From Owenia fusiformis (lineage: Eukaryota; Annelida; Polychaeta; Sabellida; Oweniidae), in contig CAIIXF020000012.1 of NCBI GenBank assembly GCA_903813345.2, positions 10,064,432 to 10,128,431 on the forward strand: a stretch of 64,000 nucleotides of DNA. Reading direction: 5' to 3'. Shown piece after piece: positions 13,626-46,500 of the stretch. The position numbers were made by a program, and so were the translations under genes. Every line of letters starts with the position of its first letter. The first letter of the stretch is position 1. Below the pieces are notes generated by a model, which ran no database searches, was not told the origin of the DNA, and worked only from the letters and a program-made list of their open reading frames with translations.

Positions 13626-13735
13626 CCGAAGTTGGTCGAAGATGTTTATATCACGAAGTTGGCCGAAGATGTTTATATCACGAAGTTGGCCGAAGATGTT
13701 TATATCACGAAGTTTGCCGAAGATGCTTCAAGGAA
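13626..13735 (+). repeat. 27-bp minisatellite, about four copies
   Basis: Unit CGAAGTTGGCCGAAGATGTT plus TATATCA, period 27, lies in the intron before the extra TSP1 exon of oxidase copy 2. The last copies are diverged (TTTGCCGAAGATGCTTC). Confidence 0.8.
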
Positions 13736-15131: not shown

Positions 15132-17373
15132 AAGTAGAGCGTATCACTTTAATCCTAACATTTAATATTGTAAAAGAACATGTGTCACTTCAGCTAGTGA
15201 ATCTCCTTTTTCACAATAGGACATGTTTCAAATCTTCTTCAATCGAAAATCTATTGAAACTCCCATAAAATATTTTTGGGATTGGATTTTATTAAAATGG
15301 TAACATTTCCTATGTACTCGATCGACCAATGTCAATAGCCAGCTCACATCAGAAGTTTGATGTTCATTTTACTCATATGTGCAAATCATTCAATTATGCC
15401 ACAAATATATATGTGTGTTATATCCTATAACTACCTTATAGGTACGGCTTCAGTCCTCATATTGGGAGGTGGTATGGCTGGCGTTATGGCGGCAAAGACA
15501 CTCAATGAAGCTGGTATCACGGATTACATTATAATAGAGGCTCAACCGAGGCTTGGAGGCAGAATTTCAGACATTAAATGGAATGGATACACCTTGGAAC
15601 AGGGTGCGGCATGGATACATGGCTTAGATGGAAATCCTATGTGGGATCTTGCTCAAAAGTATAATTTAAGTGGATTTATAACAGATTACGAAGACTATAT
15701 TGCACGAGACGCGAACGGAAATGACGTCACTTAAGAATATGATTTGGTTTACGACCGATTGATGCCTGCTCAGGATTTTGAATACGACTTAAACATAGAG
15801 AAGCTTGAAAACGACGGTAGTGATATTACTAAAGATGTTGCACTTCGACTGGGTGGTTGGGATGCGAAATCGAAGTATGATTATGCTGCTCAATACTACG
15901 ATTATGACTGGGAATATGCAGAAGATATTGACATCCTCTCTCTGAAATACGGCTTGTTGTTCACCTTTAAGGACTACAAAGAAGGCGACTATCATGTGGT
16001 GGATTCCAGGGGATATCGTCATTTGGTACAGGCAACGGCCGATGAATTCCTAAATGGTACAAACCTCATGCTTAACAAAACTGTGTCAAAAGTTGAGACT
16101 TTGCCAAACCGAGTCAGAGTAACTCTTCAGTCGGGAGAAATCCTTGAAGCGTCGTATGCGATAATGACATTTAGTATTGGTGTTCTACAAAATGAGCTGA
16201 TTGCGTTTGACCCACCTCTATCATTTGAAAAGAAGGAAGCCATAAATTCTTTCAAAATGTCCCCCTACACAAGAACTGTTCTGAAATTTCCTCATGCTTT
16301 TTGGGATGAAAATGAGTTCATTATCAATCCGCCAAAAAGACCAGGATATTATGTCATCTGGGAAAACTACAACCTTACCAAAATATATCCAGGTAATTAT
16401 CTGAATCATACTTTTATTGCAACATTCTCATTTTTGCCTCCATACAGTGCAGCACTTATGGAACAAGGCAATATATTTTTTGTTCCATCAATCAATGTTC
16501 TTTAAAGATCAACTCTTGGTTTACCACGAGTGATCGGTTTACCACGTCGTGATTTAAACAAAACGCATGGTATTTGACACATTTAATGTTTCAACATGTA
16601 ATGTTTAGGTTCCAACATTATCGTGTCCACCCTCACTGGAAATGAAGCAAGGCGTGTAGCTTCCCTTACAGAGGAAGAAATCATAGCTGAAAACATGGGC
16701 GTTCTAAGGTCGATGTATGGCGCTGGTATTCCAGACCCAGAATCTGTACTGATCAGTAGCTGGACAGACAATCCTACGACAATGGGTGCATATAGTAGCT
16801 GGCCAATGGCATTTAGCCTTGGTGACCATGATGTTATGAAGTCACCGATTAGAAATTTGCATTTTTCTGGGGAGCACACGAGTGCCCGTTTTTATGGCTA
16901 TACACACGGGGCGTATTTTTCTGGTATTGAGACTGCAACTAATGTAGTCCAGTGCATGGAGCATGGTTGCTGATTAATAACAGGTGTCTTTTACAATTGC
17001 TGTGTCCCATTTCTCCATGATTTAGACATACACTCCCCGTAAAAAGTTTGACAACCTTAGGTCTCTTTTTGACTACATGTTGAAGCATATTTTAAGTTTG
17101 TGATTTTCACAAGTTCATCAAGGTTGCGACATACCGGGGGAACTGAATTTAGATTTAAATTTCCAAAATAATATGCCAGCAAAAAAGCACATGTAATAAA
17201 TCCAGATATAAATTCAAAAAATAACAACTCTTTTTTGTTTTTTATGTACTTCGAAAATAACTTTCAAAACATGGCTTTTTATGTTACCACCAAAAGTGGT
17301 CACTTTAATAAATCTAGGTTGTTACTTATTTTAACAAATAATTCAACAAACATGTTTGCAACTGAGTCACTTA

Positions 17374-20537: not shown

Positions 20538-21370
20538 TCACAGGCTGGTATCGAAAGATTTGTCCGCAGTGACGGAGCATGCTATTTTTCATAAAAACAC
20601 TAAGAATGCTTCACGATTTATTTTTTAACATATATGTTTCGTTATATCAAAGATAATTACTTACTCCATGCAATGGATATATCATTTGCGTGTAACCTTC
20701 ACTTCTGTTTGAAGTCCAATAACGCTTGGAGTAAAATCTATTGAAAACGGCGCCAGAGTATCAAATTCTAAAATGTACCATTTCTTTTTTAACTTTTTAA
20801 TGGCATGATATAGTGACACGATAATATTAACAAATGTTTTCAGCATAACTCTGAATGTATTAATGAGATATTAATGCATTGGATCTTTTTAATTTTTTTA
20901 TAAAAAATTATATTAATATTTTTTGTCCGCTGTGACGGAGCATTTTCACAGTTCACATTTGCAACTGCTCCGTCACAGCGGACAAAAAAATGAAACATTA
21001 TTTTTTATAAAAGAATTAAAAAGACCAAATACATCAACATCTCATTTATACCTTCATAATTATGCTGAAACCATGTGTAAATATTATCGTGTCACTATAT
21101 CGTGCCATTAGAAAGTTAAACAAGAAATGGTACATTTTGAAGTATGATACTCCGGCGCCATTTTCAATAGCTTTTCTTCCCAGCGTAATTGGATTTCAAA
21201 CAGAAGTGAAAGTTACCCGCAAATGATATATCCATTGCATTGAGTAAGTAATTTTGTATGGTATAACGAAACATAGGAGTAAAAAAATAAATCGTGAAGT
21301 ATTCTTAGTGTTTTAATGAAAAATAGCATGCTCCGTCACAGCGGACAAATATTTCGATACCAGCCTGTGA
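20538..21370. mobile_element. 833-bp palindromic MITE (Harbinger-like) inside the oxidase exon
   Basis: Ends TCACAGGCTGGTATCGAAAG and CTTTCGATACCAGCCTGTGA-like (right side has ATTTCGATACCAGCCTGTGA). It is flanked by TAA at 20535-20537 and 21371-21373, while the uninterrupted paralogues have a single GCGATAATGACATT. This proves insertion with a 3-base duplication, typical of PIF/Harbinger. Almost the entire length folds back on itself. The motif TTTGTCCGC-GTGACGGAGCA occurs near each end and again as an inverted pair at the centre (about 20923-20990), giving four copies. Confidence 0.9.
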
Positions 21371-21901
21371 TAATGACATTCAGTATTGGTGTTCTGCAAA
21401 ACGACCTGATTACGTTTGAGCCACCCCTATCATTTGAAAAGAAGGAAGCCATTAATTCTTTTCAAATGTCTCCCTATACGAGGACTGTTCTTAAATTTCC
21501 TTATGCGTTTTGGGATGAAAACGAGATCATACTCCACACGCCGAAAAGGCCAGGGTATTACGTCATCTGGGAAAACTATAACCATCCCAAAGTATATCCA
21601 GGTAACGTTTTGAATCATACCGGAACCTTGTGTGCGATGCACTTCTTCAATTTCTAAAATATTATTTGCTACATCAATGAATGCCCTTTAGAGATCAACA
21701 CTTTCCATTGATTTCTTGGTTTACTAGGAAAATAAAAAAATCCTACATCATTTACCTTTTTATCAAAGCATGATACCGTAAAAGCAAATTTGAAGACATT
21801 CTAGTATTTTTAGTATTTAAGTATTTTATATTTGACAAATAATAAATATCAACTTCAATAAATACGACGCCGTGGTTAAAAAACGTTGCACATTCTTCAA
21901 C

Positions 21902-22035
21902 ACATTTAATGTTTCCCCATTTAATGTTTCGGGTTCGAACACCCTTATTGGGGATGAATCTATGCGTTGAAGCTGGGGATGAAGCTTGGTGTCTTTGACA
22001 TAGTTAATGTTTCCCCGTTTAATGTTTCAGGTTCG
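21902..22035 (+). repeat. 98-bp duplication of the acceptor of the last oxidase copy 3 exon
   Basis: TTAATGTTTCCCCATTTAAT and the following TTC-GGTTCGAAC occur at about 21906 and 22004, 98 bases apart. The first copy includes the opening of the exon (GGTTCGAACA, then TTGGGGATGAA) but its AG is GG, so it cannot be used. The real acceptor is AG at 22029-22030. Confidence 0.6.
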
Positions 22036-22401
22036 AACATTATTATATCCACCCTTGCTGGAAATGAAGCAAGGCGTATAGCTTGCCTTACAGAGGCAGA
22101 AATCGTGGTTGAAAACATGGATGTTCTCCGGTCGATGTATGGTGCTGGTATTCCAGACCCAGACTCAGTATTGATAAGTAGCTGGACAGACAATCCTACG
22201 ACAATGGGTGCATATAGTAGCTGGCCAATAGGATTTAGCCCAGCTGACCATGATAATATGAGGTCACCGATTAGAAATTTGCATTTTGCTGGGGAGCACA
22301 CAAGTGCCCGTTATTATGGTTATACACACGGGGCGTATTTTTCTGGTGTTGAAACTGCAACTGACGTGATTCGTTGTATAAAGCACGGCTGCTATAATTG
22401 A

Positions 22402-25502: not shown

Positions 25503-28500
25503 ATGGACGGTAAGATTTTTTATTTTTCCCCAAATATTTATGTTTTTCCTTGTTATACTTTAATCCCTGGACAAATATTTCAAATTTTAGACGTGTATTC
25601 GAAACTGTATTTCACTCATCAAATTTCCAATGTAGGGATGCTTTAGTTTGTCACAATTGTTTATTTTCATTGAATAATTGTGATTTGAAATTTTTTGATG
25701 AGGATGCAAAAGCCGCCCCGCCCACCTGAAGTCAGGAACGATATATACATTTTTAGCGTAGATTGGCATTCATGTGGACATATTACTAGAAGCTTAGATT
25801 TAGATAATATATTTGCAGAGTTGACCTCTTTTCCCCAAAGTTGTTATTGTAATAATATTGCCATACTGTATAGGCCCCCTGTATATCTTACTTCCTGCGA
25901 AAGCTATGTGGATTTTGATATAATAGCTTTCCCACGGCGCACTTGGACAGCTGAATAATAGTGACTTTTAAAACATGAATAATGAGATCCGCAGCTTACT
26001 TTTGGTCTCTAACAGTGTATAACATCAGTATCATCAATCTGTAAGTATTGGAGCACTGAAATACTTTCACAACAAAAAAAACATTCACTCGACTAACAAT
26101 TACAAGTCTTGATCGAAAAGGAAGTACTTCAGCGCTCTAATACTTGCACGGAAGGATGATAATGATGTATGACATAGAGAACAAAAGTAATATACATGTA
26201 TTAGTGATACAGGGTGTACAGTGTACACCTATAAATCCAGCTTGTATCAGAATATATCAGTGATACAGGGTGTACAGTGTACACTTATAAATCCAGCTTG
26301 TATCAGAATATATCAGTGATACAGGGTGTACAGTGTACACCTAAACATGTATAAATCCGAACTCCCGTGCAGTGATATATCACTGCGGCGGGCAGGTATC
26401 TCACCGTAAGCATGGTAACTTCGTAATTAACAACTGACGTGATTGGTTCTAGTCCCATGCTCAGGTTGCGTGATTGTAAAATTTAGACAATTTCATTGGT
26501 TGAATTGTGCGTATTAACTAATAAACAACACGTGCTGTAAACTATTATAAACAAAACTTTTACTCAGAATTCCTTCCGCGGTGATTTCTTCTCATATTTC
26601 AATAATTTTGAAATATTTTGACAAATTAATGTTTGGGGAACATTCATGAATACATATTTTATAAGTTGTGTGAAAATTGACCACATATGCGATGAAAAGG
26701 TGAACTATTTTCCCCAAATTTTGGGGATTTGCTTCATCTGCCCGCCGCAGTGTCTATACCGAGACACTGCATTGGAGTTCGGTATAAATCCAGGTTGAAT
26801 CAGTATCTATCAGTGATACAGGATGTACTTGTAGTTCAAATATTTTTGTTCAATAATTACAGCATCAGCTGAAGTCGGGAAACTTCAAAGTCATTTAGCA
26901 CTACTTCGAGAAGAATATGTGAAGTTACAGAATCGTTATGCTGATTTAGAAAAGCGCCACCAGGTGGCATTGGCAGCATCTGGGACAGTTGAATCGGAAA
27001 ATTTTGTTTCTCGATTACTACAAACAGTGGCCGATTTGTTTGATAAAGATTTATACAGGTAAGAGCAACCTCAAATTGAAATATCTCTAAAATTTAAAAA
27101 TGTAACAATTCTTAGATCTAAAAAGAAGTTAATTACAAAGTATCACTTGCACTTTTTGAAATAGATAACACAATAAGATAAATAAAGGGGCAACAAAGTC
27201 TATAGAGAGAAAATTCAAATTTTCTTACTTTTTCTGAGCTATCATTGCAAAAATTGGCTGAACATCTTCATTGACATACCTATTTTCTTAAAATGTATGG
27301 ATAAACAATCAATTTCAGCATTAAGATTGTAAATTCAGTTCAAGGCTTCTATAAAGGGAGTCCCACTTTAGATTTTTAAGATCCACCGCATTTCAAGAGG
27401 AATATTAGCTGAAATAATGTTCATCCAGGAGGTTTCATTGTAGATAATTAAAATATATGTTAGTCTTGATGAAATATCCAAACTTGAATATATTTTGACA
27501 CTGGTCCATGATCGTTGAATGTCCCCTCTGCACTAATTGTGTAAGTGTACAAGATGTGTAATTTTCCTTTCAGAAATATTCTTGTGCCCATGGATAAAAT
27601 GGATAGTACAAGATGAGCATGTAACATTCTTTCTTTCAGTGACTTTAGTGTATTATATGTGGGCAATGCATCAAGATGTGTGATGTTCCTTTCAGAAATC
27701 TTACTGTGTAGATACATTGATAGTTCTTAAAGATGTGCATAGTTCTTTCAGTGACCTAAGTGTGCAGATAGATGGCCAGTACATTAAGGCTCATAGGTTT
27801 AGAGTATAGTGTGTAGATACATTGATAGTACTTAAAGATGTGCATAGTTCTTTCAGTGACCTAAGTGTGCAGATAGATGGCCAGTACATTAAGGCTCATA
27901 GGTTTAGAGTATAGTGTGTAGATACATTGATAGTACTTAAAGTTGTGCATATTTCTTTCAGTGACCTAAGTGTGCAGATAGATGGCCAGTACATTAAGGC
28001 TCATAGGTTTAGAGTATAGTGTGTAGATACATTGATAGTACTTAAAGTTGTGCATATTTCTTTCAGTGACCTAAGTGTGCAGATAGATGGCCAGTACATT
28101 AAGGCTCATAGGTTTAGAGTATAGTGTGTAGATACATTGATAGTACTTAAAGTTGTGCATATTTCTTTCAGTGACCTAAGTGTGCAGATAGATGGCCAGT
28201 ACATTAAGGCTCATAGGTTTAGAGTATAGTGTGTAGATACATTGATAGTACTTAAAGTTGTGCATATTTCTTTCAGTGACCTAAGTGTGCAGATAGATGG
28301 CCAGTACATTAAGGCTCATAGGTTTAGAGTATAGTGTGTAGATACATTGATAGTACTTAAAGTTGTGCATATTTCTTTCAGTGACCTAAGTGTGCAGATA
28401 GATGGCCAGTACATTAAGGCGCATAGGTTTAGAGTATAGTGTGTAGATACATTGATAGTACTTAAAGATGTGCATATTTCTTTCAGTGACCTAAGTGTGC

Positions 28501-31500
28501 AGATAGATGGCCAGTACATTAAGGCGCATAGGTTTGTTCTGGCAGCCAGAAGTGACTTCTGGGGTGTGGCTGACCTGGCAACAACTTCACAACTAGACTT
28601 TACAGGTAATGTGAAATTTAGAATGGAGGTATAGTCAAATATAATGACAAAGAACAGAGAGTGTGTTCAGTTATCTAGATTAGTAAAAGGGTAAATTAAC
28701 AAGAATTTCTAGACAGTTTAAATCATTGTTCATCTTCTGTAACATATTTTATCACATATTTTACATACCAGTTCATGTTGTTTGAAATTTCAACTTTCTG
28801 TCTGTCGAAAATTTTCAGACAAATAGCCGTGCTGGTATTTTGTCTCCTGATATTGCCTCCAATTAGAGAAATAACATGATATTAGATTCTTCATCATATA
28901 TATTAGGCATGAGCCCACAGAATGTGACAAATGAAAACTGACATCCATCTGAACTGATACCCTGATGTCCATTTTATTTGAAAGGGTTTATGCAGGTAAT
29001 TTTCACCTAGCTCCTACTTTTGCATAACTTTTGAGAAACAGGTTGTTATCACCATTTGTGTCCACCAAATGGTGCCATTTTTATGTCACCACTAGAAGTG
29101 GTGACATATTGTTAATTGTCTCCATCTGTGGATTGTGATCAGTGGTAGGTGTTCTAGCATTTGTAACAAATGACATGTGGTGACGTTGTGCATATTAATG
29201 CCTTGTTTCATTTCAGACATCCCATATGATGTAGGCCATGCATTACTGAAGTGGGTCTACACAGATACTATTGATATTAAATCTGATGACAAGTTCCTTC
29301 TTGCATTACTGAAGACTGCCAGTAAATTCAAACTTGGAGAGCTAAGAGAAAGGTATGAGCTCTAGTTTATAGCTATTAGGCAGGTAGCCAGCTTGTGCCA
29401 AGGGGGAGGGTTAATTTGACCATTTTGGCCCAAAATCACTAGCAGAGTGCTCAGAATGGTGAAAAACTACATGATTTTAAAATGATTTTTGGCCAAGGAT
29501 GGGTTGACTCATCCGCAAACCCCCCCTGTCTACACTCTGGCTGTAACCACGGAATTGCTGCTCTTTGAGTGAAATGTCACATTGTGGTTTTGTGAATATG
29601 GGTCCTCATAATGATTACTGAATTGTGTAGAGGGGGTGTAACATATTGAGTTAGATCAAAGTTTGGAATATTTTTTTCTTTTGGCTGGATGTGATTTCAG
29701 ATGTTTCTTTATTCTTGCTTATTTATATAGCAAAATGTAGCACAAAACCTTTTAATTCACATATATGAAAAATTCAACTGAAATTAAACTTGAACCAACC
29801 TGGCAAAAACTGACTGACATGCCCCGAACCCTGACCTCACTTGCACTCAATATGCAGCTAATCTACATCTGACTGACACCAAACGCACACCTAACTCACC
29901 TTAAGACAAATGTTTATTTGGTGAAATATGCATTAACAGATCTTGTATATTTCATTTAGATGTGAGAAGGCATTGATCTCATCAGTGAATGTGAAGAACT
30001 GTATCCAATATTACCAAACGGCAGAAGAAATAGGAGCTGAGACTTTAAAGAAACATTGTTCAGAGCTAATCTCCAACCATTGGGTAAGTGATGCATCAGT
30101 TTGTAGGTTGTATTAAATGAATGAACTGAGGTACTAGATACTAGACTTGCTCAAGGACTCAGTAGCAATTGTCAAAATTAGTTCTTATTGCACTCAATGC
30201 TCTATAGCTGTTACGGATGTTTAGGATTAGAATGATTTACATTACATGTATTCATTTGTGTAATATTATTTTTCTAATCTTAGTAGTATAACTGTTCATT
30301 CCCAAGGCTCCACATTACTAGTGATTTGATTGAAAATGTTTGAAAGTGGAAATTTTATTTATTTTCAGAGTGATTTCAATGCTACTGACTTCGTTTCAAT
30401 GCCAGCCCCATTGCTGTATTCCATGTTTAAGGCTAAATCCAGTTATCCCCTACATACCACCATAAGAGCACACAGAGAGGACGTCTTGTTTCTATACTTG
30501 ATAGAGTTTGACTCACAGGTATGTTTAAAAGTTGTCCAAGTTATACAATAAATGTTGTGGATAAATAAGTTTTGCTTCAAGACCCTGTATCCCCCTATCT
30601 TCAACAACAGTTGATAGGGGGTGGTCAAGGGTCTTGAATCAAGATAATGGGTAAATTGAATGAGTCGGAATACTATTTATATACTACAAGGTGTACAGTA
30701 TGTGTCATTACTGTAATTTGCATTTGCAATGGATTCATAGTGGTTTTACCTTAAATCTTATTTGATTCAAGTGGGACTTTATTTGTTATTTTTGTCACCT
30801 TTTCTGATATTTTACTATATCTATTGCCACTCCCTTTATATAGGGTGGATTTATTAAATTACATATATAATGTACTCTATTATCGCCCACTTGATTTCTT
30901 TAGGACTTTGATATTTTTCTTATATGTTAGTCAATAATTGGTCATTTCTCCATATTTCTTGAACTTTGTGAACTGGGTGGGCACTTATAAGGGGTTTGGT
31001 TATAAATACACCGACTATGGTACATGTATTTCATATTTCCAGTTGCCTGGTAAACTGAATGAGATTGATGATAAAGGAGATCTCCCATTAGACCTTGCTC
31101 TGGTAGATCAACTCGAAAGCATAGCTGACACTCTAGTGAGGCATAGAGTGAATACCAGTGCAGTGGATAGAGAAGGAAATGCTCTCATACACAAGGCTAT
31201 AACACGAGGTAAGGCATAGAGTGAATACCAGTGTAGTGGATAGAGAGGGAAATGCTCTCATACACAAGGCTATAACACGAGGTAAGGCATAGAGTGAATA
31301 CCAGTGTAGTGGATAGAGAGGGAAATGCTCTCATACACAAGGCTATAAAACGAGGTAAGGCATAGAGTGAATACCAGTGCAGTGGATAGAGAGGGGAATG
31401 CTCTCATACACAGGGCTATAACACGAGGTAAGGCATTGAGTGAATACCAGTGCAGTGGATAGAGAGGGAAATGCTCTCATACACAGGGCTATAACACGAG

Positions 31501-34500
31501 GTAAGGCATAGAGTAAATACCAGTGCAGTGGATAGAGAAGGAAATGCTCTCATACACAAGGCTATAACACAAGGTAAGGCATAGAGTGAATACCAGTGCA
31601 GTGGATAGAGAGGGAAATGCTCTCATACACAAGGCTATAACACGAAGTAAGGCATTGAGTGAATACCAGTGTAGTGGATAGAGAGGGAAATGCTCTCAAA
31701 CACAAGGCTATAACACGAGGTAAGGCATAGAGTTAATACCAGTGCAGTGGATAGAGAGGGAAATGCTCTCATACACAAGGCTATAACACGAGGTAAGGCA
31801 TAGAGTGAATACCAGTGCAGTGGATAGAGAGGGAAATGCTCTCATACACAGGGCTATAACACGAAGTAAGGCATAGAGTGAATACCAGTGCAGTGGATAG
31901 AGAAGGAAATGCTCTTATACACAAGGCTATAACACGAGGTAAGGCATAGAGTGAATACCACTGCAGTGGATAGAGAGGGAAATGCTCTCATACACAAGGC
32001 TATAACACGAGGTAAGGCATAGAGTGAATACCAGTGCAGTGGATAGAGAGGGAAATGCTCTCATACACGAGGCTATAACACGAGGTACGGCATAGAGTGA
32101 ATACCACTGCAGTGGATAGAGAGGGAAATGCTCTCATACACAAGGCTATAACACGAGGTAAGGCATAGAGTGAATACCAGTGCAGTGGATAGAGAGGGAA
32201 ATGCTTTCATACACAAGGCTATAACACGAGGTAAGGCATAGAGTGAATACCAGTGCAGTGGATAGAGAGGGAAATGCTCTCATACACAAGGCTATAACAC
32301 AAGGTAAGGCATAGAGTGAATACCAGTGCAGTGGATAGAGAGGGAAATGCTCTCATACACAAGGCTATAACACGAAGTAAGGCATTGAGTGAATACCAGT
32401 GTAGTGGATAGAGAGGGAAATGCTCTCATACACAAGGCTATAACACGAGGTAAGGCATAGAGTTAATACCAGTGCAGTGGATAGAGAGGGAAATGCTCTC
32501 ATACACAAGGCTATAACACGAGGTAAGGCATAGAGTGAATACCAGTGCAGTGGATAGAGAGGGAAATGCTCTCATACACAGGGCTATAACACGAAGTAAG
32601 GCATAGAGTGAATACCAGTGCAGTGGATAGAGAAGGAAATGCTCTTATACACAAGGCTATAACACGAGGTAAGGCATAGAGTGAATACCACTGCAGTGGA
32701 TAGAGAGGGAAATGCTCTCATACACAAGGCTATAACACGAGGTAAGGCATAGAGTGAATACCAGTGCAGTGGATAGAGAGGGAAATGCTCTCATACACGA
32801 GGCTATAACACGAGGTACGGCATAGAGTGAATACCACTGCAGTGGATAGAGAGGGAAATGCTCTCATACACAAGGCTATAACACGAGGTAAGGCATAGAG
32901 TGAATACCAGTGCAGTGGATAGAGAGGGAAATGCTTTCATACACAAGGCTATAACACGAGGTAAGGCATAGAGTGAATACCAGTGCAGTGGATAGAGAGG
33001 GAAATGCTCTCATACACAAGGCTATAACACGAGGTAAGGCATAGAGTGAATACCAGTGCAGTGGATAGAGAGGGAAATGCTCTCATACACAAGGCTATAA
33101 CACGAGGTAAGGCATAGAGTGAATACCAGTGCAGTGGATAGAGAGGGAAATGCTTTCATACACAAGGCTATAACACGAGGTAAGGCATAGAGTGAATACC
33201 AGTGTAGTGGATAGAAAGGGAAATGCTCTCATACACAAGGCTATAACACGAGGTAAGGCATAGAGTTAATACCAGTGCAGTGGATAGAGAGGGAAATGCT
33301 CTCATACACAAGGCTATAACACGAGGTAAGGCATAGAGTGAATACCAGTGCAGCGGATAGAGAGGGAAATGCTCTCATACACAAGGCTATAACACGAGGT
33401 AAGGCATAGAGTGAATACCAGTGCAGTGGATAGAGAGGGAAATGCTCTCATACACAAGGCTATAACACGAGGTAATCATTTGCAATTTATTGTTAGGGTT
33501 ACATTGTTACAATTAGTCTATTGACATTTGTTATTCACTAATTGTAATGCTAAAGCGACAAGTCACTCTACTTTACCTAACACCTAGAAATGCATAAGAT
33601 ACTTTGTTTGTCCAATTGTATTGTTTAGTATATTTTTGAAAGTGCCTTAGTGACATCTAACATTCAACCGATAAACCATTCATAAGGAACAGATGAATAA
33701 AAACAAATAACATAATTATTACTAATAAGCCAAATGGGTTGCTCATGAACACCAAATGCAAGGGACAGTAGAGTAAAGTGTTTTTAAGCCATTTGCCAAT
33801 ACATTGAGTATTTTTATCATATTAAATATATTTTCATCAGTAATAGGAATCTTGCATTTTTTTCTTGTTTGAGAATTACATTGAGCTTCTTTGTTGTTTT
33901 TCTTGTAATAACTACAGTAAAAAAAATATATATATAACATAACATTATTCACTTTTATGTTTGTTTGATGACTTCAATTATATAATAAAATGGACAAATG
34001 AATTCAAGTTCATTGACTTAAGAGTCTAATTTAATTTATTTTTGACTTGAGTTAATTAATGCATCACCAGAGAGTTGATTTACTCAGGAATACAATGAAT
34101 TGATTTATATCTTACAGGAGATGAAAGTTCCGCAACATTCCTGATAAAGAATGGTGCTGATGTTAATGCTGCCACCCAGATGGCGCTTCAGACAGCCCTG
34201 CATCTTTGTGCGGCATTTGACCCAGAGATAGCGTCCACAGAGGTCATTAGAGGAATGGCTAATGTTACAAAAATGCTGTTAGAAAATTCTGTTGATTTGA
34301 ACAAACAGGATAAAGATGGAAAGTAAGTTGATTTCATGCTTTGGATATTTTACATACCCAATTTATGAAAAATACTGCTCTGATTCTCAAAGTCAATTAA
34401 TTCTGTAAAATATAGACACTTTGTTTGTGCTCCTTGCCATACCGTTTACTGAAAAGAAGGTTGTTGACAATCTATTGAAAGTGCAAGTGACAGGTTTTTA

Positions 34501-37500
34501 TTCTTCTTTTTTCATTGACATGCAGTATTCTCCATAGGATTTTTTCCCAAGTGGGTGCAAAATTCTTATTTCCACAATTCAGACCAAAATTAATCAAAAT
34601 GATTTTTCTCATTTTCAAGTGAGTGCAAATAGAAATACAGGTGGGTGCAAGCCTGATTTTAAAATCTCAGGTGGGTGCTGAGCTTCTGCTTTAATGCTTG
34701 GGAGATCACTGGACATGGAAGCATTACAAGGTCATTAGTAAAAATTATTGACAGCTCATTGGCCAATCAGAAACAAGAACCTATATCAATAAAGTTACTT
34801 TCAATATATCTTATTCCATTTCAGCACACCCATAAACCAAGCCGTGCAGTCAAAGAACAAAGAAGTATTTGAGACTTTATTGAACCATACTTCCTTGAAC
34901 CTTGAGCTACAAAACCAAGAGAAACAAGTATATAAACAAAGCTACATGCACTTTCAATATATCTTATTCCATTTCAGCACACCCATACACCAAGCCGTGC
35001 AGTCAAAGAACAAAGAAGTATTTGAGACTTTACTGAACCATGCATCATTAAACCTTGAGCTACAAAACCAAGAAAGCCAAACAGTATTATGGTTAGCCTT
35101 ACAGGTCAGTTACTAATAAATAAAGAACTTTTCATGTTAATTCCACAACTTTTTTGTGGATGGTGTTAGGCAGTTGTAATTCGGCATTTATAACAAATGG
35201 TAGGTTGTGATATTGTGCATGTTAATGCTTTGTTCATTCTTTGTCTTTATTCTGCAGTCAGTGGGGCATTTGTTCTTAGTTCATAATAATTTGGACTGCT
35301 TGTGTCATGTATTATTTGTGCAAAATCAAAGAGATTGGTCTATGAAAAGTGTGTAAAAAGCTTCTATTACTTATTAATCGCCCCTCGTATATATACTGTT
35401 TGTATCGACAATCTAAGAATAGGAACAAAAGTACATATAACAGATATTAATTAATGTATAAAATTATACAAGTATAAATTATACATCAAAGGATATCCCA
35501 TATCTATTGATAGCAATTAACATGATGGAATATATATTTATCAAAACAGGACCTAACATGTACACATTTGGAGGTGTTCTTACGTTTATGGTTTTGAGGT
35601 GTTCAAATGTTAAATATATGTAAAATAAAATCAATCACTTTATATTTCATATGCTTATATGTTAACAGGCAGAAGGACAGCAGACAAACTATGGTCCAGA
35701 CTGCTTGGCTGCCAAACTTGTAAAGAGGGGAAGTTCAACAAATGCAGTCAACATAAGTACAGGTAAATTGAAAAAATTGAAAATAAGAAGAAAATGGATA
35801 ATAAAAAAGTACAGGTAAATTGTAGTTTCAGCATGCTTCTTCTATGTTAATATGACTTACATGTAGTTTGAGGGCTCCAAACAGATTTGTGAGGAATCAT
35901 GGGTAAATTGTATTTAAGCAAGCTTCCTTACAAAATATGGCAATATGACATTTTATGACGTTTGAACCTGTCTTAGTGAACACCTCTCTTTAGTGAACAT
36001 CTGTATCTAGTGAACACTTGTCTTTTGTGGACACCCTTCATCCGCACATACTCTCCTGATTTCTGTATTATACATTACCTTTTCTGAAGTGAACACCTAT
36101 CAACACTGAGTGTTTTTTCTTGGCAAAAAAATGTTCAATATACACAGGTTTTACAATATTCAAAGAATACATCTCTAGATAGTTTTTTGGAAGTTGACAC
36201 GAGGAATCATATAGAAATAACAAATTATTTGACACACCATGCAATAAGCGGGTTAAATCAACCAACGGACTTATCAGCTAATCATTACAAAAAAATGAAC
36301 TTTAAAAGCGTACATGTAAACTCAATGACATTTTGTAATCCATTCAAGAAGGATTTTTCTGTGATCATCTCCTAGGTGATGCATTGCTTCACAGAGCTGC
36401 AAGATCTGGAAATGAGGCTGCCGGTATCTTCCTAGCAACACATGGTGCTGATGTAACACATGCCAATAACAAGGTATGTATGGGATGTACTGTATAAGTG
36501 GTAATTTTGCCTAATCATTTAATTTGGCTATTTCCTAATGTTTGCCAGGTTCGGTAAATTAAATGGTGGAAAAATTCTTCATAATGTTATCAAATGGGAA
36601 GTTTATTGTCATTTGGAGAATTATAATTAGGAAATGGATAAAATTTTACTAATCTGCAAATTAAGCACTCAGATTAAATACAACTTTATAGTATCTGTTA
36701 ATATGGTCAGTTTTAGATACAGGGTTCATCTTTTGAAAAATATCATATACCGGTACATTGTAAAGTGGTTCATCCTTTTGGAGATACACATATTCCCCTT
36801 AGGATAATATAAGTTATTGAATGATTTGAAGTGCAATACAGGATATATTCTGTTCGAGAAATTTTGTATTGGAACGAGACGAAGTCGAGTGCCAATACAG
36901 AATATCGAGACAATATATCCTGTATTGCACTTCAAATCATTCAATAACGTTTTTATCGTGTGATCCTCTGTATTGCTACTGAGATTGTCCCCTCCGTACC
37001 AATTTTCTGTATTGCGACGGAGCTGATCAACGGGGACAACCCCAGTAGCAATACAAATTGGTACAGCACAAGAACTGACCAATCAGATGGCTTCATTTTA
37101 CAGATCATACGATAAAACCCTGTATCAAATAACTTCAAGTACAAAATTGTTAAATACAATATATAATTGTAATATGGAAAATAATCTATTTTCATTTTAG
37201 GGTGAGACTCCACTTCATGTTGCCAGTGAGAAAGGCCTCACTAACCTAGTAGAGATACTCCTCAGTAAAGGTGCTAACCCAAATGCCCAGACTAGGTCAA
37301 ATATAGGTGGCACTCCTACAGATTTTCCCGGTGATCAAGAAGATGGCATTGTTGCTAAGCAGACTCCTTTACATGTTGCCATAGCGAATCGTCATGAGCC
37401 GGTTGTCAAAGTATTCCTTGACTACAAAGGTAAAATTGGTGATATCCTGAACTAACTTGCCTGTTTAAGATACAATTACATGTATTCTGACTTCGATGAT

Positions 37501-40500
37501 CTCAACATTCTCACTAGATATGATGTCACCATCCTTGACAAGCATCCCACCTTCATATAGTTCCAAGGTAGAATTGATCCCTAATTTTTTCTTCAAGAAA
37601 AAAAAAATTATCCCCAGTGAATAATTATCCTAGACATTTACATACAAATTCTGCAAAATGTGTAACTTAACTACCTAATAAGTTCAGTGTAGCACACTAA
37701 TATGAATGATAATTATGATTTCAGCTAAGGCCACTTATGTAGCACACTAATATGAATGATTATTGTGATTTCAGCTAAAACCACTTATGTAGCACACTAA
37801 TATGAACGATTATTGTGATTTCAGCTAAAGGCCACTTATGTAGCACACTAATATGAACGATTATTGTGATTTCAGCTAAAGGCCACTTATGTAGCACACT
37901 AATATGAACGATTATTGTGATTTCAGCTAAAACCACTTATGTAGCACACTAATATGAATGATTATTGTGATTTCAGCTAAAACCACTTATGTAGCACACT
38001 AATATGAATGATTATTGTGATTTCAGCTAAAACCACTTATGTAGCACACTAATATGAACGATTATTGTGATTTCAGCTAAAACCACTTATGTAGCACACT
38101 AATATGAATGATTATTGTGATTTCAGCTAAGGCGACTTCCACAGGAGACAATATGGCCATTATTCCAAACTTTAATCTAAAGGACTCAAATGATCAAACA
38201 GTACTTGGTCTTGCTCTCTGGAATGGCTATTTGAACATCGCAGAGACATTATTGAATGGAGGTTCTAATATCAATGATGTGAATGCAGAGGGCATGACGT
38301 TACTTCACCAGGCTATTGTAAAACAAGATACGCCCAGTGCATTGTTTTTATTACAACACTCTGCTGATATGAATGTTAGGTAAGCTTTGTCTTGTCATGG
38401 AATATCATAAATAGTGTTTCTTGTCATGGTGCTACTTAATCTAGCTAGGTATACCAGGTGCATTGTTTTTGTTACAGCACTCTGCTGATATGAATGTTAG
38501 GTAAGCTTTGTCTTGTCATGGAATATAATAAAGTAGCGTTTCTTGTCATGATGCTACTTAATCTCGCTAGGTATACCTGGTGCATTGTTTTGTTACAACA
38601 CTCTGCTGATATGAATGTTAGGTAGGCTCTATCTTGGTCATGGAATATGAACCCTAATATTAATGTTTCTTGTCATGATGCCACTTTTAATAGTAAAACA
38701 AAATAGCACTGCAGATTTAAATGTGAGGTTAGTTTTGTCTTCTCATGGAATATAATAAAGTATAAAGTTTCTTGTCATGATAACGACCAATGAGAGGAGC
38801 ATGAATCATTGAACTGGCCATTTCTTTGTAAATCTTAAATACTGTATTTTCACAGGACATCAGACAATGAGACTCCACTTCAACTTGCCATAAAACGCCA
38901 CCTGCCTGTTGTCGTAGACATACTTTGCCAACGAGGTGCCAACATGAATGTAACATATGATGATGGAGACTGTCCATTGTGGCAAGCACTTGAAACGGGA
39001 CAGGAAGATGTTGCATCAACTCTGGTATAAAGTTTTATAATTAATACAATGAAACCTGTAAAGTGGAACACCTCTAAAGTGGAACACCTCTGTAAATTGA
39101 ACATTTTTCTTCAGGCTTCTCATTTAAGAAATCTTGAATTTTGATTGGTTGAGAAGTGGTCAAAACTCAATAGACTATACCTGTACAATGTATCAACTGC
39201 TTGAATTTTCAATAATGTTTCAGGATGAAATTAAATATGATGGGAAAGTTCAATTGTCGAGTATTCAATCTAGTAACTGGAGCTTAAAAGTTAATTATTC
39301 ATTTTCTCCACCATTTTTCTGTAACTTGCTAATCTGCTAATTCACTACTTTGTTGAGTTGCATTTTTCAAGTTTTTTTATGTCACTATGTTCAAATAGTC
39401 TCCAACTTTCGTAGGAAATGTTTGGCAGTTGGTGTTTGGTGGTTTGGGTCTGTAACAAATGGCAGGTGGTGACATTTTGCATGGCAATGCATTGTCTCTA
39501 TTTTTCTCACCTCTGGATAAGCCAATATTACTATAATGATGAAGAACATTATCAATTCCCCTGTTTTAATGACCATTTACAGGTGAGACATGGCTGTGAT
39601 ACCAACATGTGGGGAACTGGACCTGAGGGTTGTCTACAGACTTTGCTACATAGAGCTATAGACAACAGTAATGAATCTGTTGGTTGCTTCTTAATCAGAA
39701 GGTCAGTATGTGTCCATATTGCTTTACAATATACAGTTAAACCTTCACATCTGAACACCTGTCTTAACTGATCTGGGCACCTCTTAATGTGAACACTTTT
39801 TTAAACTGCCATAGATAACAATGTTAAACAACCTTGAAAAGTGATCATTTGCCAATCCAAAAACTTATGTCTAGTTCCAGTGACATTCACATGAGGCTAT
39901 TGTAAATGATTAAATAAGCCAAAGTCTAATATAACCCTTAGGAAAAAAGTTTAGGGGATTACCCTGGGTTTACCCGAATGTAGCATTAACTTACCTTAAT
40001 GTCAACCTTAATTCAAAATTACCCTCAATATTGGGGAAATTAACCTAACTTTACTCATAACTAGATGTTGGGGAATTATAAGGGTCAGTTAAGGGCTAAA
40101 CATGTGTGATCTTAATATACCTAAATAAACCCCAATCAACCTTATTTTACCTTAATTAACCTCAGTTACCCTATTTTCTAGGTTACTTTATGTAATCTGT
40201 TTTTTTTTGTTTGTCTATAAATATCATTTATCTTAATGAACTATAGTCTACCAGTCAAACGATAAGTATATATTGTATAAGACCACTTATTTAACTTACA
40301 AAACTCTTATAGGAGTTGAGCTGGAAGTCTAATATAACAAATAATATTTGGCTTTTAGACTAACATGAAATGAAAATAAAATTGACAACCTGATACTTAT
40401 GATATGTAAGATGTATCAACATGGCCAATCTAGCCTTTTACATTATATAACATGCTATAATCCTCCCTGGAGCTGTTTTGGAAGGCAAGTGTATGGTATA

Positions 40501-43500
40501 TTAGTGAGACTAGATGTCTATTGTCTATTATTACAGCTCAATAATATTTGACTAGAAGGCACATTGCCAACTACTAATAGGTATGATTTGGTGGACTCTA
40601 AGCGTGGCTTTTTGAGTTATTTTCCCTAAAAAAGTAATTACTAGTATTTTTATTTCATTGGCAATTATGCATTTTGTTAATTTTGAGCTGGATGACTTCG
40701 TCTAAAAAATGAATTCAATATATGGCTGAAATCAATGTGACCCTTAATTCTGATAATAATTTATCATGATCTACCCTTGACATGAACCTTGATAAACATT
40801 AATTGAACCTTAATTGTCCCTTAAGTCCACCCTTATGTTGCCCTTAAGTGCACCTTAATTATCCCTTGACTGCATGTATAATTTCCCTAAGTTTCCCTAA
40901 TATTCACATTGATTCACACAAGCCAACCATAACTTCACCTATCATTTAATATTACTTATAGAAAATGTGATTCACTGACTGCTTAGGTAATTTAATGTTT
41001 TCTACGTGAACCCCTTGTTGGAATCCCCAATACCATCACATTAGATTTGTACTCCCTTGTACTGTTTTGAGGAACCTGTATTTCTTTAAATATATGTGCT
41101 AGGGGTCTAATATTTAAAGTAGTTAAAATTTGACTAGTTGCTACAATGGAAATGAAAACAGAAATTACAACCAAAATGACAATTACATGATGGTTCCGTT
41201 TTTTAAGACATTTAAATTTGGCCAATCTAGCCATTCACATTGACAAATAGTGTGATTCTCACTGGAGCTGTTTTAAGGGCCATGGATCTCTTCTGTCAAA
41301 TTAACCTAGATATCTAATATTACCAGTGAATTATATTTGGCTTCATGGCTGGCAAGAAATAATCAGAGAAATGACATGGCCAATCTAGCTTTTTGAGAGC
41401 CAGGGATCTGGGTATGAGCCAGGGATCTGGGTATGCTTTGGTGGACTCTAAGCATGGCTTTTGAGTCATTTTCCTTTAAAAAGTAATTACAGTAAATCCT
41501 GTGTATAGTTAACAATTTTTTGACAAGAAAAAATGTTCACTGTTGGTAGATGTTCACTACAGCAATTATTTGATTTCGCGGCATTTTGCCGTATTATACA
41601 AAGAGACCAGCTATTAAAAGAGAGGAGGAGTTTTTTGATTTGTTGTACTGTTATACACATCCTGACTTATTTTCGTCTGACTGTCATCTGAATAGTTCAT
41701 CCTTTTATTGTCAAATTTTAATCTCTTTATAATTCTTTTTATCTCATCAAGATGGTCCCTTAAATAGTGGAATCTTTGAGTCATTTGAGTCAGTTAAAGG
41801 ACTTTATTGAATTAGTTAAAGGACATAATAGATGCAGTAAATAGTGAAATGATCATGAATAATAATTTAATCCAATTTATCTTTAAATTGATGGGATGAG
41901 AAAAAGATTAAGTTGGGACTTAGCAGATAGAGGTAATACTAGTTAACCAGATTATCTCGAAGCAATTAATCCCAGACGCATATCCTGTGTTACAAAAACA
42001 AAGCTTATTAAGAATTATAATTAGTCACACCTGTTTCAATAGAAGAGATCAAGATCTCAAATTGACCTTTTAATTATTTTTGGCAGGTAATAAAAACATA
42101 AACTGCTTAACTCTGATAAGGCAGTTGCAGAAAATCCATGAGAAATCTTATATCTGATTCAATGTTCACTAGAGACAGGATAATTCAATTGATTTTGCCA
42201 AGATTTAGTGTTCACTGTTCATAGTTGGTAGGTGTTCACTATAGGGTTGTACTTTAACATGTGAGTCAATGGGAGAAAAAGGTTTGCCGAAGAAAAACAT
42301 TCACTGTTAATAGGTGTTCATTAGAGAGATGTGTTCACTAACTCAGGTTTTACTGTACTAGTATTTTATTTCATTGGCAATTATGCATTTTGTTATTAAT
42401 TTTAAGCTTCATGACTTTGTCTCAAACATGTATTCAACATATGGCTGAAATCAATGTGACACTAATTTCTGATTATAATTTATCATGATCTACCCTTGAC
42501 ATGAACCTTGGTAAACATTAATTGAACCTTAATTGTCCCTTAAGTCCACCCTTATGTTGCCCTTAAGTGCACCTTAATTATCCCTTGACTGCATGTATAA
42601 TTTCCCTAAGTTTCCCTAATATTCACATTGATTCACACAAGCCAACCATAACTTCACCTATCATTTAATATTACTTATAGAAAATGGGATTCACTGACTG
42701 CTTAGGTAATTTAATATTTTCTACTAGAACCCCTTGTTAGGAATCCCTAATACTATCACACTAGATTTGTACTCCCTTGTACTGTTTTGAGGAACCTGTA
42801 TTTCTTTCAATATATGTTCTAGGGGTCTAATATTTAAAGTAGTTAAAATTTGACTAGTTGGCACAATGGAAATGAAAACAGAAATTACAACTAAAATGAC
42901 AATTACATGATAGTTCTCTTTTTAACACATTTAAATATGGCCAATCTAGCCATTCACCTTGACAAATAGTGTGATTCTCACTGGAGCTGTTTTAAGGGCC
43001 ATGAATCTCTTCTGTTATTTAACCTAGATATATAATATTACCAGTGAATTATATTTGGCATTATGGCTGGCAAGAAATAATCAGAGAAATGACGACTTCC
43101 TGATAGTTCTGTTTTATGAGAGGCCTTAACATGGCTAATCTATAGCCATTTTCTTTGAAAACATATTGTGATTCTCTCTGGGGCTGTTTTGAGGGCCATG
43201 TATCCCTTTCATTATCTAAACTAGATTTCTAATATTACAAGTGATTTATATTTAGCTTAAGGTGAGCAGAAAATGAAAATAAAAATGACAAAACCCGATA
43301 GCTCTGTTTTGTAAGACATCTTGACATTGTCAATCAAGCCATTTACCTTGATATTATAAGGTGAATCTCTCAGGAGCTGTTTTGAAAGCAGTGTATCTCT
43401 TTTGTTATTTAAGCTGTCTGTCTAATATAACAATTGAATTATATTTAGCTTTAGTGCTAGCAAGAAATGAAAATCAAAATTACAACGTCCCAAGAGTTCT

Positions 43501-46500
43501 GTTTTGAAAGATATCTTAGCATGATCAATCAAGCCATTTACCTTGATATTATAATGTCAATCTCTCAGGAGCTGTTTTGAAGGCAGTTAAGCTAGATGTC
43601 TCATATTACAACTGAATTATTTTTGGCTTACTTGCTAGAAAGAAATGAAAAAAGAACAACTACCCAATAGGTATGATTTGGTGGATCTCTTAGCATGACT
43701 TATTGGTCATTTTCCTTAATAAAATAATCATACTTATCTCATGGTAAATTATGTATTTTGTTTATTTTAGCTAATTATTCTTAAATTCACTTCAGCCAAC
43801 CATGATTTCACTTTTTTGAAACTGAATTCTGAAATTTATTCAGACTCAGGCCCCTATAGATAAAGTTTCATCTATGTAAAAGGTAAATGATTTACCCTGA
43901 AGTAACCCTCAAATTACCCTAAACTTTGAAGACCCTTTGTACCAAACTCATAATGTAGCTATTGATTTTTCAGTAAATAATTCTAAAAATGATGGTTGTA
44001 TTATTTATATGGTAGCATTCACTGAATGCTTCATTTGCTTCAAGCAATTAAAGTTTTCTATTTGAACCGCTTTGAGGGAGTCATTAAAGTACCATTACAC
44101 TAGATTTGTACTCCCTTGTGCTGATTTGAGGGACCTATTTCTCATTCCATATATGCGCTGGGGGTCTCATATTTATGGTTGTTAATATTTTATTTGACTA
44201 GTAGGCACAATGGAAATGAATACATGTACATAAATAACGACTTGTAGAAGGCGTCCATTTTTCAAAATGGCCGCCATTTTAACGTATTTTACTATAACTC
44301 GAAAAGTAGTGGAGCGATTTTGTTCATATTTGGTATGTGAATACTATAAGCATGTTACACTGTCCTATGACACTTTTGGTAAAAGCCGGCCATACAAATG
44401 TAGATATTAAAAAGCACATGGCAGCCATCTTGAAAAATGGTGGCCTTTACTCGTCATTTTACGATTTTTGCTGTAACTCTAAAAATAGTGGAGCGATTTT
44501 GTTCATATTTGGTGTGTGAATACTATAAGCATTGCACACTGTCTAAAGACACTTTTTGTAGAAGGCGTCCATTTTTCAAAATGGCCGCCATTTTACCGTA
44601 TTTTACTATAACTGGAAAAGTAGTGGAGCGATTTTGTTCATATTTGGTATGTGAATACTATAAGCATGTCACACTGTCCTATGACACTTTTGGTAGAAGG
44701 CTGCCATTTTGAAAACAATTTTGAAAAATGGCCGCAATTTTAACGTATTTCACTATAACTCGAAAAGTAGTGGAGCGATTTTGTTCATATTTGGTATGTG
44801 AATAAGCATGGCACACTGTCTATTTCTAATGACGCTTTTGGTAGAAGGTGGCCAATTTGAAAATGGCCACCATTTTAATGTATTTTACTATAACTCGAAA
44901 AGTAGTGGAGCGATTTTGTTCATATTTGGTATGTGAATACTATAAGCATGTTACACTGTCCTATGACACTTTTGGTAAAAGCCGGCCATACAAATGTAGA
45001 TATTAAAAAGCACATGGCAGCCATCTTGAAAAATGGTGGCCTTTACTCGTCATTTTACGATTTTTGCTGTAACTCTAAAAATAGTGGAGCGATTTTGTTC
45101 ATATTTGGTGTGTGAATACTATAATCATTGCACACTGTCTAAAGACACTTTTTGTAGAAGGCGTCCATTTTTCAAAATGGCCGCCATTTTAACGTATTTT
45201 ACTATAACTCGAAAAGTAGTGGAGCGATTTTGTTCATATTTGGTATGTGAATACTATAAGCATGTCACACTGTCCTATGACACTTTTGGTAGAAGGCGGC
45301 CATTTTGAAAACAATTTTGAAAAATGGCCGCAATTTTAACGTATTTCACTATAACTCGAAAAGTAGTGGAGCGATTTTGTTCATATTTGGTATGTGAATA
45401 AGCATGGCACACTGTCTATTTCTAATGACGCTTTTGGTAGAAGGTGGCCAATTTGAAAATGGCCACCATTTTAACGTATTTTTCTATAACTCGAAAAGTA
45501 GTGGAGCGATTTTGTTCATATTTGATATGTGAATACTTTAAGCATGGCACATTGTCTAATAAAACTTTGGGGAGTAGTTGGCCATTTTGAAAAATGGCCA
45601 CCATTTTTATGTGTTATTTTACAAATACGCGTGCGATTTTTCAAAAATTTTAGAGGTGGCTACTTAAAAGCATATTATTTCTTTCGATGACAACTTGGCT
45701 AGTGAGCAACCATTTTGAAAATGGTGGCCTTTCTGGTGTGTTGTTTTATGATATTTGCGCTTCGTTTGTAAAAATGCCAGCCATTTCTGTTTGATGGGAT
45801 TCGCTACGCTTTAGCGTTGCCGTTGTTCTGGTTTAAGCTGTCTGTCTAATATAACAATTGAATTATATTTAGCTTTAGTGCTAGCAAGAAATGAAAATCA
45901 AAATTACAACGTCCCAAGAGTTCTGTTTTGAAAGACATCTTAGCATGGCCAATCAAGCCATTTACCTTGATATTATAATGTCAATCTCTCAGGAGCTGTT
46001 TTGAGGGCAGTTAAGCTTGATGTCTCATATTACAACTGAATTGTATTTGGCTTACTTGCTAGAAAGAAATGAAAAAAAGACAACTACCCAATAGGCATGA
46101 TTTGGTGGATCTCTTAGCATGGCTTTTTCGGTCATTTTCCTTCATACTTATCATACGGTAAATTATGTATTTTGTTTATTTTAGCTAATTATTCGTACAT
46201 TCACTTCAGCCAACCATGATTTCACTTTTTTGAAACTGAATTCTGAAATTTATTCAGACTAAGACCCCTATAGATAAAGGTTCATCTATGTAAAAGGTAA
46301 ATGATTTACCCTGAAGTAACCCTCAAATTACCCTAAACTTTGAAGACCCCTTGTACCAAACTCATAATGTAGCTATTGATTTTTCAGTAAATAATTCTAA
46401 AAATGATGGTTGTATTTTATATTTCATATTATTTATATGGTAGCATTCACTGAATGCTTCATTTGCTTCAAGCAATTTAAAGTTTTCTATTTGAACCGCT

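Follow-up and report, generated by a model that had tools for sequence, protein, structure and literature searches.

The window, that is, the whole stretch of 64,000 nucleotides that was analysed, contains an ANKFY1-like gene and several oxidase genes, of which copy 1 bears one tandem array on an exon-intron junction and the partial paralogue copy 3 a decayed one. The ANKFY1-like model comprises 24 coding exons with AG/GT at all internal boundaries and reads as a single open reading frame of 1151 residues, whose product matches the Pfam families BTB (5.4e-16), Ank_2 (6e-92) and FYVE (4.4e-18). The name ANKFY1 was proposed in a first-pass annotation of the window and is presumably right, as it fits the human protein. 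The GC content of the window is 34.6%, lower than that of amphioxus, which is about 41%. Two short motifs are repeated beyond expectation, TACATGTA (15 observed vs 2.3 expected) and AAGGTCA (33 vs 3.9), and they give a mollusc-like impression, which proves nothing. A LINE-type reverse transcriptase and a palindromic repeat motif are also present, and scans of the window for Rfam families and for tRNAs each returned zero matches. In collections of viral and prokaryotic sequences, the palindromic motif had zero exact matches, and the reverse transcriptase gave 20 pattern matches among genome contigs and 2 among viral contigs, of which none was confirmed; five repeat strings of the window likewise had zero matches in the text of papers.

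Arrays were detected by the combined use of TRF and self-BLAST. Because 54-bp and 27-bp arrays reported by TRF were unreported by self-BLAST, the two lists were merged by hand. The self-comparison yielded 115 matches scoring at least 40, against a mean of 0 in three controls in which bases were shuffled inside 200-bp blocks. All six arrays and both older echoes listed in the first-pass annotation were recovered by the two approaches, and its intron-only minisatellites of 27 and 56 bp are present as well. The main features are the following:

25503-59177, + strand: ANKFY1-like gene (BTB, ankyrin repeats, FYVE), a splice-consistent model that hosts five arrays
2691-3023, + strand: TSP1-exon donor array of oxidase copy 1, TRF 88 bp x3.8, four donors, presumed used donor after 2736
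21894-22039, + strand: last-exon acceptor duplicate of oxidase copy 3, self-BLAST, 48 bp aligned at 98-bp spacing, acceptor before 22031
26196-26343, + strand: intron-only 56-bp minisatellite, TRF/self-BLAST, a counter-example in the bias test
27550-28535, + strand: exon 3 acceptor array, TRF 105 bp x7.9 (27705-28535), eight acceptors, presumed used acceptor before 28487
31139-33475, + strand: exon 7 donor array, TRF 73 bp x32.0, presumed used donor after 31208
34769-35073, + strand: exon 9 acceptor pair (sites before 34825 and 34978, spacing 153 bp), recovered by self-BLAST with a score of 221 at 88% identity, missed by TRF
35757-35822, + strand: exon 10 donor echo, a 14-bp donor sequence present twice (35757, 35809), 52 bp apart
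37688-38138, + strand: exon 13 acceptor array, 50/51-bp unit (TRF 50 bp x8.8, 37688-38130), nine acceptors, presumed used acceptor before 38127
38337-38781, + strand: exon 13 donor array, unit of ~121 bp (TRF 121 bp x2.8, 38337-38686), three copies and a decayed fourth, presumed used donor after 38379
55498-55721, + strand: older duplication on the donor side of exon 16, self-BLAST, ~62 bp at 162-bp spacing, alignment ending before the junction
55571-55605, + strand: small exon 16 repeat, TRF 17 bp x2, on the donor itself
57569-57781, + strand: intron-only repeat with 64/125-bp spacing, self-BLAST, beginning ~20 bp downstream of the exon 21 donor, a counter-example in the bias test

The arrays carry splice sites, as had been claimed: five lie on junctions of the ANKFY1-like model, a sixth on a junction of oxidase copy 1 and the decayed seventh on copy 3. 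The TSP1 array is real, although the extent first given for it (2737-3001) was too narrow. Two junctions were struck repeatedly, exon 16 at two scales and exon 3 by an older and a younger array, the older being a decayed repeat with three acceptor-like sites (27550-27704) upstream of the younger one, in which a 9-bp filler occupies all seven unit joints.

Comparison of the units provides insight into how the arrays grew. At exon 7, the block of copies 7-16 matches that of copies 17-26 at 728 of 730 positions, showing that this array was enlarged by duplicating blocks of units. Edge units are distinct there (GTAATC vs GTAAGG) and in the exon 13 acceptor array. The four donors at the TSP1 junction of oxidase copy 1 correspond to one in copy 2 (paralogous junction at 14565), and the last-exon acceptor occurs twice in copy 3 and once each in copies 1 and 2; these single-copy paralogue junctions suggest that the duplicated state is derived. 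Collapse or over-extension of repeats during assembly could be invoked, as minisatellite copy numbers are easily misassembled and, in the lancelet, two sequence versions disagree on the PGBD5 repeats (2 or 7 and 3 or 6 units; PMC3902484). However, private and shared substitutions, block structure, unequal array ages and decayed echoes are hard to obtain by error, and an artefact is the least probable of the explanations considered here. The exact copy numbers in the assembly may nevertheless be wrong.

Use of the spare sites would be mostly destructive. A frame test on the six arrays of intact genes, a set without the decoy of oxidase copy 3, yielded a premature stop from 55 of 56 spare sites: 10/10 at exon 3 (three of them the older upstream sites), 31/31 at exon 7, 8/8 at the exon 13 acceptor, 3/3 at the exon 13 donor, 3/3 at TSP1 and 0/1 at exon 9, whose decoy acceptor keeps the frame open and would add 51 amino acids. 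The small echoes at exon 10 and exon 16 (17 bp) would also lead to stops if used (2/2). The first-pass annotation had placed the productive site beside the unique exon. The outer site is indeed frame-intact, but it is not the only such site at exon 9, where both acceptors are open, and any tandem duplication that spans a junction will, by its geometry, leave the productive site next to the unique exon. The possibility that spare copies serve as alternative ankyrin modules was considered and rejected, since they cause a frame shift or a stop and 3 of the 32 exon 7 copies contain an in-frame TGA.

The spare sites are intact and mostly strong, yet destructive in most cases if spliced in. They could regulate splicing, for instance by drawing U1 or by generating unproductive NMD isoforms, and both the premature stops from nearly all decoys and the GT kept intact in 32/32 exon 7 donors would be expected of such a role. 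At the divergence of this array (44 variants in 2336 positions), only ~1.2 broken GT bases are expected, so that finding none is uninformative. Further, the 17 distinct coding-frame variants of the array (6 synonymous, 10 nonsynonymous, 1 stop), set against a neutral expectation of 26/71/2%, look neutral, copy 1 carrying a single synonymous variant only. Older decoys also decay, as shown by oxidase copy 3, where AG has become CG, and by copies 3 and 4 of the exon 13 donor array, which are weaker than the used site. A regulatory function is thus very improbable.

Splice-site strength was scored with a PWM derived from ordinary sites, 31 donors and 31 acceptors. Overall, 42 of 56 decoys scored at least as high as the used site (24/31 at exon 7; 5/7 in the exon 3 array and 1/3 among its older sites; 8/8 at the exon 13 acceptor; 2/3 at TSP1; 1/1 at exon 9; 1/3 at the exon 13 donor, where decoys scored 10.1, 6.9 and 4.7 and the used site 10.1), and therefore position must decide. 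For donors, choice by position would fit the prediction of exon definition. In designed minigenes with two 5′ sites of equal strength and flanking introns of 365 nt, the upstream site was used exclusively in 5/5 cases; for 3′ sites, no more than a reduced upstream preference is reported under exon definition, and when both 5′ sites were weak the larger exons were mostly skipped (PMC9225289). The cross-exon proximity rule put forward in that paper would explain the use of the exon-proximal donor among many equals. As far as its text bears on these arrays, the system consisted of human alternative sites and two-site minigenes, whereas here up to 32 natural sites compete and acceptors are involved too, for which the paper gives weaker support than for donors. 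As assembled, the ANKFY1-like gene has 23 introns, of which 21 are longer than 250 nt, and the ancestral introns beside five of the six arrays are estimated at ~290-690 nt. The ancestral intron at the exon 13 donor array is estimated at 128 nt; intron definition would there favour the wrong copy, which speaks against the explanation preferred below, although two of the three decoys are weaker at this junction.

The most probable explanation, to which a probability of about 0.72 is assigned, is that these arrays are mirage-type minisatellites that arose by ordinary tandem duplication and passed the filter of splicing tolerance, their decoys being neutral. A stretch of 50-150 bp that was locally duplicated in tandem would by chance include an exon-intron junction, and further units would then be added, at exon 7 at least as whole blocks. 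Splicing would keep to the copy that adjoins the unique exon, and because this outer copy is still spliced, the remaining copies would be read as intron and drift neutrally. Purely exonic duplications would be purged and junction ones retained, since selection anchors one of their copies. In the living animal, the outer site is probably the one in use, as judged from the open frame, with exon definition as the likely cause. The first-pass annotation had offered two readings, tolerated decoy sites and a local mutational process. The former is the better supported, by intact sites, high scores and the effect of using them. The latter is possible at most, given the small numbers, a window picked for its arrays, short introns that make junction matches common, and unit ends whose offset from the splice site varies.

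The claim of recurrent junction duplication in the first-pass annotation also holds, the count in the window lying above the area expectation. Of nine genic arrays of at least 40 bp, seven overlap junctions where area predicts 2.26 (nominal P 0.0011); within the ANKFY1-like gene alone the figures are 5/7 against 1.83 (P 0.013). Both counts are post hoc and small and come from a window chosen for its arrays. Intron 15 repeats look like dispersed elements and were dropped from the strict count; restoring four of them (units 133, 195, 196 and 282) gives 5/11 against 1.72 (P 0.017). In that intron, the arrays of 19-23 bp and another block of 282 bp were among the repeats left uncounted throughout. 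The count also excluded arrays beyond the gene models (10910, 23601, 59276, 59512-61568, 61765, 62978 and other small ones), a pair 704 bp apart in an intron of oxidase copy 1 (751/1455), a pair at 363-bp spacing in oxidase copy 3, whose span was taken as 21330 to 22401 only, and units below 20 bp, including the 17-bp exon 16 donor repeat and a 15-bp repeat immediately upstream of the final exon in oxidase copy 1. The exon 10 echo was uncounted, and that of exon 16 stood outside the strict counts and within two of six variants.

Is area, together with the choice of a striking window, enough to explain this count, with zero excess? Short introns favour this explanation: for random non-exonic placement in the ANKFY1-like gene outside intron 15, the share that includes a junction runs from 15% with a 50-bp unit to 42% with a 150-bp unit, and intron-only arrays (56, 64/125, 20/39 and 27 bp) do occur. 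Nominal P values of 0.001-0.02 in all six test variants count against it, and it is considered unlikely, if worth keeping in view. A junction excess over area, modest in this window, could instead reflect a process coupled to transcription or to splicing, such as R-loops, nucleosome edges or breakage at exon boundaries, that favours duplications at junctions. Besides the array counts, such a process is supported by the repeated hits at exons 3 and 16 and by junction-centred 14-mers, which recur within 300 bp at 6/70 junctions against 197/14695 non-independent intron positions. However, the exonic share of the unit varies from 0.24 to 0.96 over the six arrays, so that breakpoints keep no fixed offset from the splice site, and persistence of anchored copies could yield an equal excess; together with the smallness of the sample and the lower proportion once intron 15 is included, this makes a junction-directed process slightly less likely again. 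Random duplication followed by the tolerance filter probably lies behind most of the junction excess, area and filter together not fully accounting for it.

These arrays line up near-identical splice sites in a conserved gene and so offer a naturally occurring test of spliceosomal choice among equals. A broader reading, in which mirages exist outside cephalochordates, a junction-biased mutational process acts in some animal genomes and exon definition hides its products from the mRNA, is doubtful, somewhat more so than either account of the excess. If it were true, exon 7 with its 32 donors would allow splice-site choice between identical sites to be tested in nature, and mirages would repeatedly supply raw material for new introns and exons. 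A genome-wide bias would suggest a boundary-linked mutational process and an origin for new introns, and a host other than a lancelet would widen the range described for mirages. Duplications that give rise to introns share with these arrays a tandem copy that crosses an intron-exon boundary and adds splice signals; here, in contrast, the spare copies stay inside the old intron and the frame is kept without a new one. Intron gain was rejected, since the intact reading frame uses one site per junction and a new intron is unnecessary.

Arrays of this class have been described before, as the mirages of amphioxus in Adh3, globins and PGBD5 (PMC3087553, PMC3902484), of which the original account, on Adh3 in 2002, is taken here through later papers. 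As those papers describe them, amphioxus mirages occur at 5′ and 3′ boundaries, have homogenised inner units and appear from RT-PCR to be spliced normally. The present arrays share with them a junction-spanning unit, present in five ANKFY1-like arrays, one oxidase array and the seventh on the partial copy 3, as well as units of 10-160 bp and extra AG/GT signals. Both boundary types are represented, donors at exon 7, exon 13 and TSP1 and acceptors at exon 3, exon 9 and exon 13; homogenised inner units with distinct edges are seen at exon 7, and a distinct edge also at the exon 13 acceptor. The differences lie in scale, with up to 32 units and five junction arrays in one gene here, whereas the BflGb6 haplotypes of amphioxus have 6 and 3 units, and in the kind of evidence, which in amphioxus includes RT-PCR and length polymorphism and here comes from the sequence of one haplotype. 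Amphioxus mirages are reported or suggested to leave splicing undisturbed; here the corresponding argument is the reading frame, which nearly every decoy would destroy. In the accounts cited, mirages have so far been described in cephalochordates.

The first-pass annotation had described tandem arrays whose unit spans an exon-intron boundary, and TRF bears this out with five such junction arrays, one in oxidase copy 1 (one of three paralogous oxidase genes) and four in the ANKFY1-like gene.

Junction arrays listed by TRF (position, feature, unit and copy number)
2691-3023, donor of the TSP1 exon, oxidase copy 1, 88 bp x3.8
27705-28535, plus strand, exon 3 acceptor, ANKFY1-like gene, 105 bp x7.9
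31139-33475, plus strand, exon 7 donor, ANKFY1-like gene, 73 bp x32.0
37688-38130, plus strand, exon 13 acceptor, ANKFY1-like gene, 50 bp x8.8
38337-38686, plus strand, exon 13 donor, ANKFY1-like gene, 121 bp x2.8

Self-BLAST (copies at most 1 kb apart) added the pair at the exon 9 acceptor and two echoes, that is, older or smaller duplicates at or beside a junction, at the last exon of oxidase copy 3 and at exon 16 of the ANKFY1-like gene. The self-comparison gave 115 hits with a score of at least 40, against a mean of 0 in three controls in which the window sequence was shuffled inside 200-bp blocks. The arrays are real and of a kind already described, and they are many for a single gene.

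The ANKFY1-like gene was modelled as 24 coding exons on the plus strand (25503 to 59177) that form a single frame of 1151 residues, with AG/GT at each internal boundary and BTB, many ankyrin and FYVE domains in the product. The model of oxidase copy 1 is also intact (7 exons, 633 residues); the peptide encoded by most of its exon 6 matches both structurally characterised polyamine oxidases (E 2.6e-45) and Pfam Amino_oxidase (3.4e-39). Given these intact models, six arrays sit on splice junctions of complete genes: at the acceptors of exons 3, 9 and 13, at the donors of exons 7 and 13, and at the TSP1 donor. Oxidase copy 2 is interrupted by a single in-frame stop in its large oxidase exon (15442-16392), which may reflect a pseudogene, a polymorphism or a mistake in sequencing. 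It also holds an extra TSP1-like exon (13839-13991) that is absent from the copy 1 model, and a pattern search of 12790-13900 found no counterpart of the short exon 3 of copy 1 (2140-2181). The intron-only 27-bp minisatellite noticed earlier was recovered in copy 2 by TRF (x3.7, 13627-13725). Oxidase copy 3 is a partial gene, within which ORFs on opposite strands encode similar peptides (20682-21226), suggesting an inverted-repeat element. Two cysteine-rich minus-strand ORFs (7926-8195 and 8441-8695) look like exons of another gene. The 15.7-kb intron of the ANKFY1-like gene (39702-55417) contains a reverse-transcriptase ORF (50783-52183; Pfam RVT_1, 3.5e-35) as well as dispersed tandem repeats with units of 135, 195 and 282 bp (TRF), and directly downstream of the gene lies a satellite (59855-61568; 148-bp unit, 12.0 copies, TRF).

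The extra splice sites, or decoys, lie on the intron side. When each was swapped in for its junction, one by one, and the product translated, 55 of the 56 decoys in the six arrays gave a premature stop: 10/10 at exon 3 (7 in the array and 3 older), 31/31 at exon 7 (at codon 303), 8/8 at the exon 13 acceptor, 3/3 at the exon 13 donor and 3/3 at TSP1. The single exon 9 decoy kept an open frame and added 51 residues; the small echo at exon 10 and a 17-bp one at exon 16 both led to stops. The frame results uphold, at five arrays, the claim that the outer site is invariably the productive one; at exon 9 this is not forced, and the outer location itself follows from the geometry of any junction-spanning duplication.

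The strength of the decoys and of the presumably used sites was scored with PWMs built from the window's ordinary splice sites (31 donors and 31 acceptors). The used donor of exon 7 (9.1) was equalled or exceeded by 24 of 31 decoys, the intron-side donor being weaker (GTAATC, 6.2). The used exon 3 acceptor, at 7.2, lies below five of the seven decoys in its array (7.5) and below one of three older upstream sites (9.0). All eight decoys equalled or exceeded the used exon 13 acceptor, two of three tied with the TSP1 donor, and the two exon 9 acceptors were tied; the exon 13 donors, read outward from the exon (10.1, 10.1, 6.9, 4.7), form the sole array with falling scores. Because 42 of the 56 decoys are as strong as the used site or stronger, position rather than strength must, on these scores, decide the choice. 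A minigene study reports that, among identical strong competing 5′ sites with 365-nt flanking introns, the cross-exon nearest was used exclusively in five minigenes, that with weak 5′ sites larger exons were mostly skipped, and that 3′ sites under exon definition showed no more than a reduced upstream preference (PMC9225289). The array-adjacent introns have estimated ancestral lengths of about 693, 646, 502, 295 and 291 nt; intron 13, at an estimated 128 nt, argues against explaining the choice by exon definition alone.

Junction bias was evaluated by placing units of the observed lengths randomly in genes, ignoring decoy DNA and purely exonic placements. In the ANKFY1-like gene without its 15.7-kb intron 15, chance junction hits ranged from 15% (50 bp) to 42% (150 bp).

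Arrays on junctions, observed against expected
ANKFY1: 5/7, 1.83 expected, P 0.013
ANKFY1 with exon 16 echo: 6/8, 2.27 expected, P 0.0065
ANKFY1 with 39-bp array: 5/8, 1.94 expected, P 0.02
ANKFY1 with four intron 15 arrays: 5/11, 1.72 expected, P 0.017
All genes: 7/9, 2.26 expected, P 0.0011
All genes, small units and exon 16 echo added: 8/12, 2.85 expected, P 0.0013

Junction arrays exceed expectation about two- to threefold, an excess that is nominally significant and post hoc, since the window was picked for having visible arrays. In a second check, repeated 14-mers occurred at 6/70 junctions versus 197/14695 interior intron positions, the intron positions being non-independent and taken from outside intron 15 and the arrays. 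A mutational hotspot at junctions is a possible, less probable cause of the arrays; the exonic fraction of the unit varies between 0.24 and 0.96 across six arrays, a spread that does not suggest breaks at a set distance from the splice site. The excess could also arise by persistence without any hotspot: selection would hold one copy, and the array would hence be neither lost nor wholly eroded. Ordinary tandem duplication together with splicing tolerance is the best account.

Two adjacent 10-unit blocks of the 73-bp array share 728 of 730 positions, and agreement between units ten apart is 71.6 of 73 positions, compared with 70.3 for adjacent units and 70.5 for all non-adjacent pairs, which indicates that the array was enlarged by blocks at least once. 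Its coding-frame variants (6 synonymous, 10 nonsynonymous and 1 stop, against neutral proportions of 26/71/2%) fit neutrality, and copy 1 of the array carries a synonymous variant only. Each of the seven joints of the exon 3 array bears a 9-bp string that is absent from the rest of the window on both strands and looks like end-joining filler; the exon 7 joint has, by eye, about 1 bp of homology. As a paralogue control, the four-donor junction of oxidase copy 1 corresponds to a single donor in copy 2, and at the last exon, where copies 1 and 2 each have one acceptor, copy 3 has a duplicate whose AG is already gone.

In amphioxus such arrays are called mirages, and further cases of 60 and 108 bp are described in PGBD5 (PMC3902484). 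Among the listed titles and opening lines of abstracts, with three of the lists giving 20 of 30, 15 of 269 and 15 of 35 entries, no paper was recognised that uses the name mirage for an organism other than amphioxus; the search covered a minority of subscription journals and does not prove absence. Two other papers offer comparisons: in potato, a new intron was made by tandem duplication over an intron-exon boundary (PMC4974935), and in earthworm metallothionein genes the first intron carries tandem repeats and fourth-exon copies are missing from the transcript (PMC12783039).
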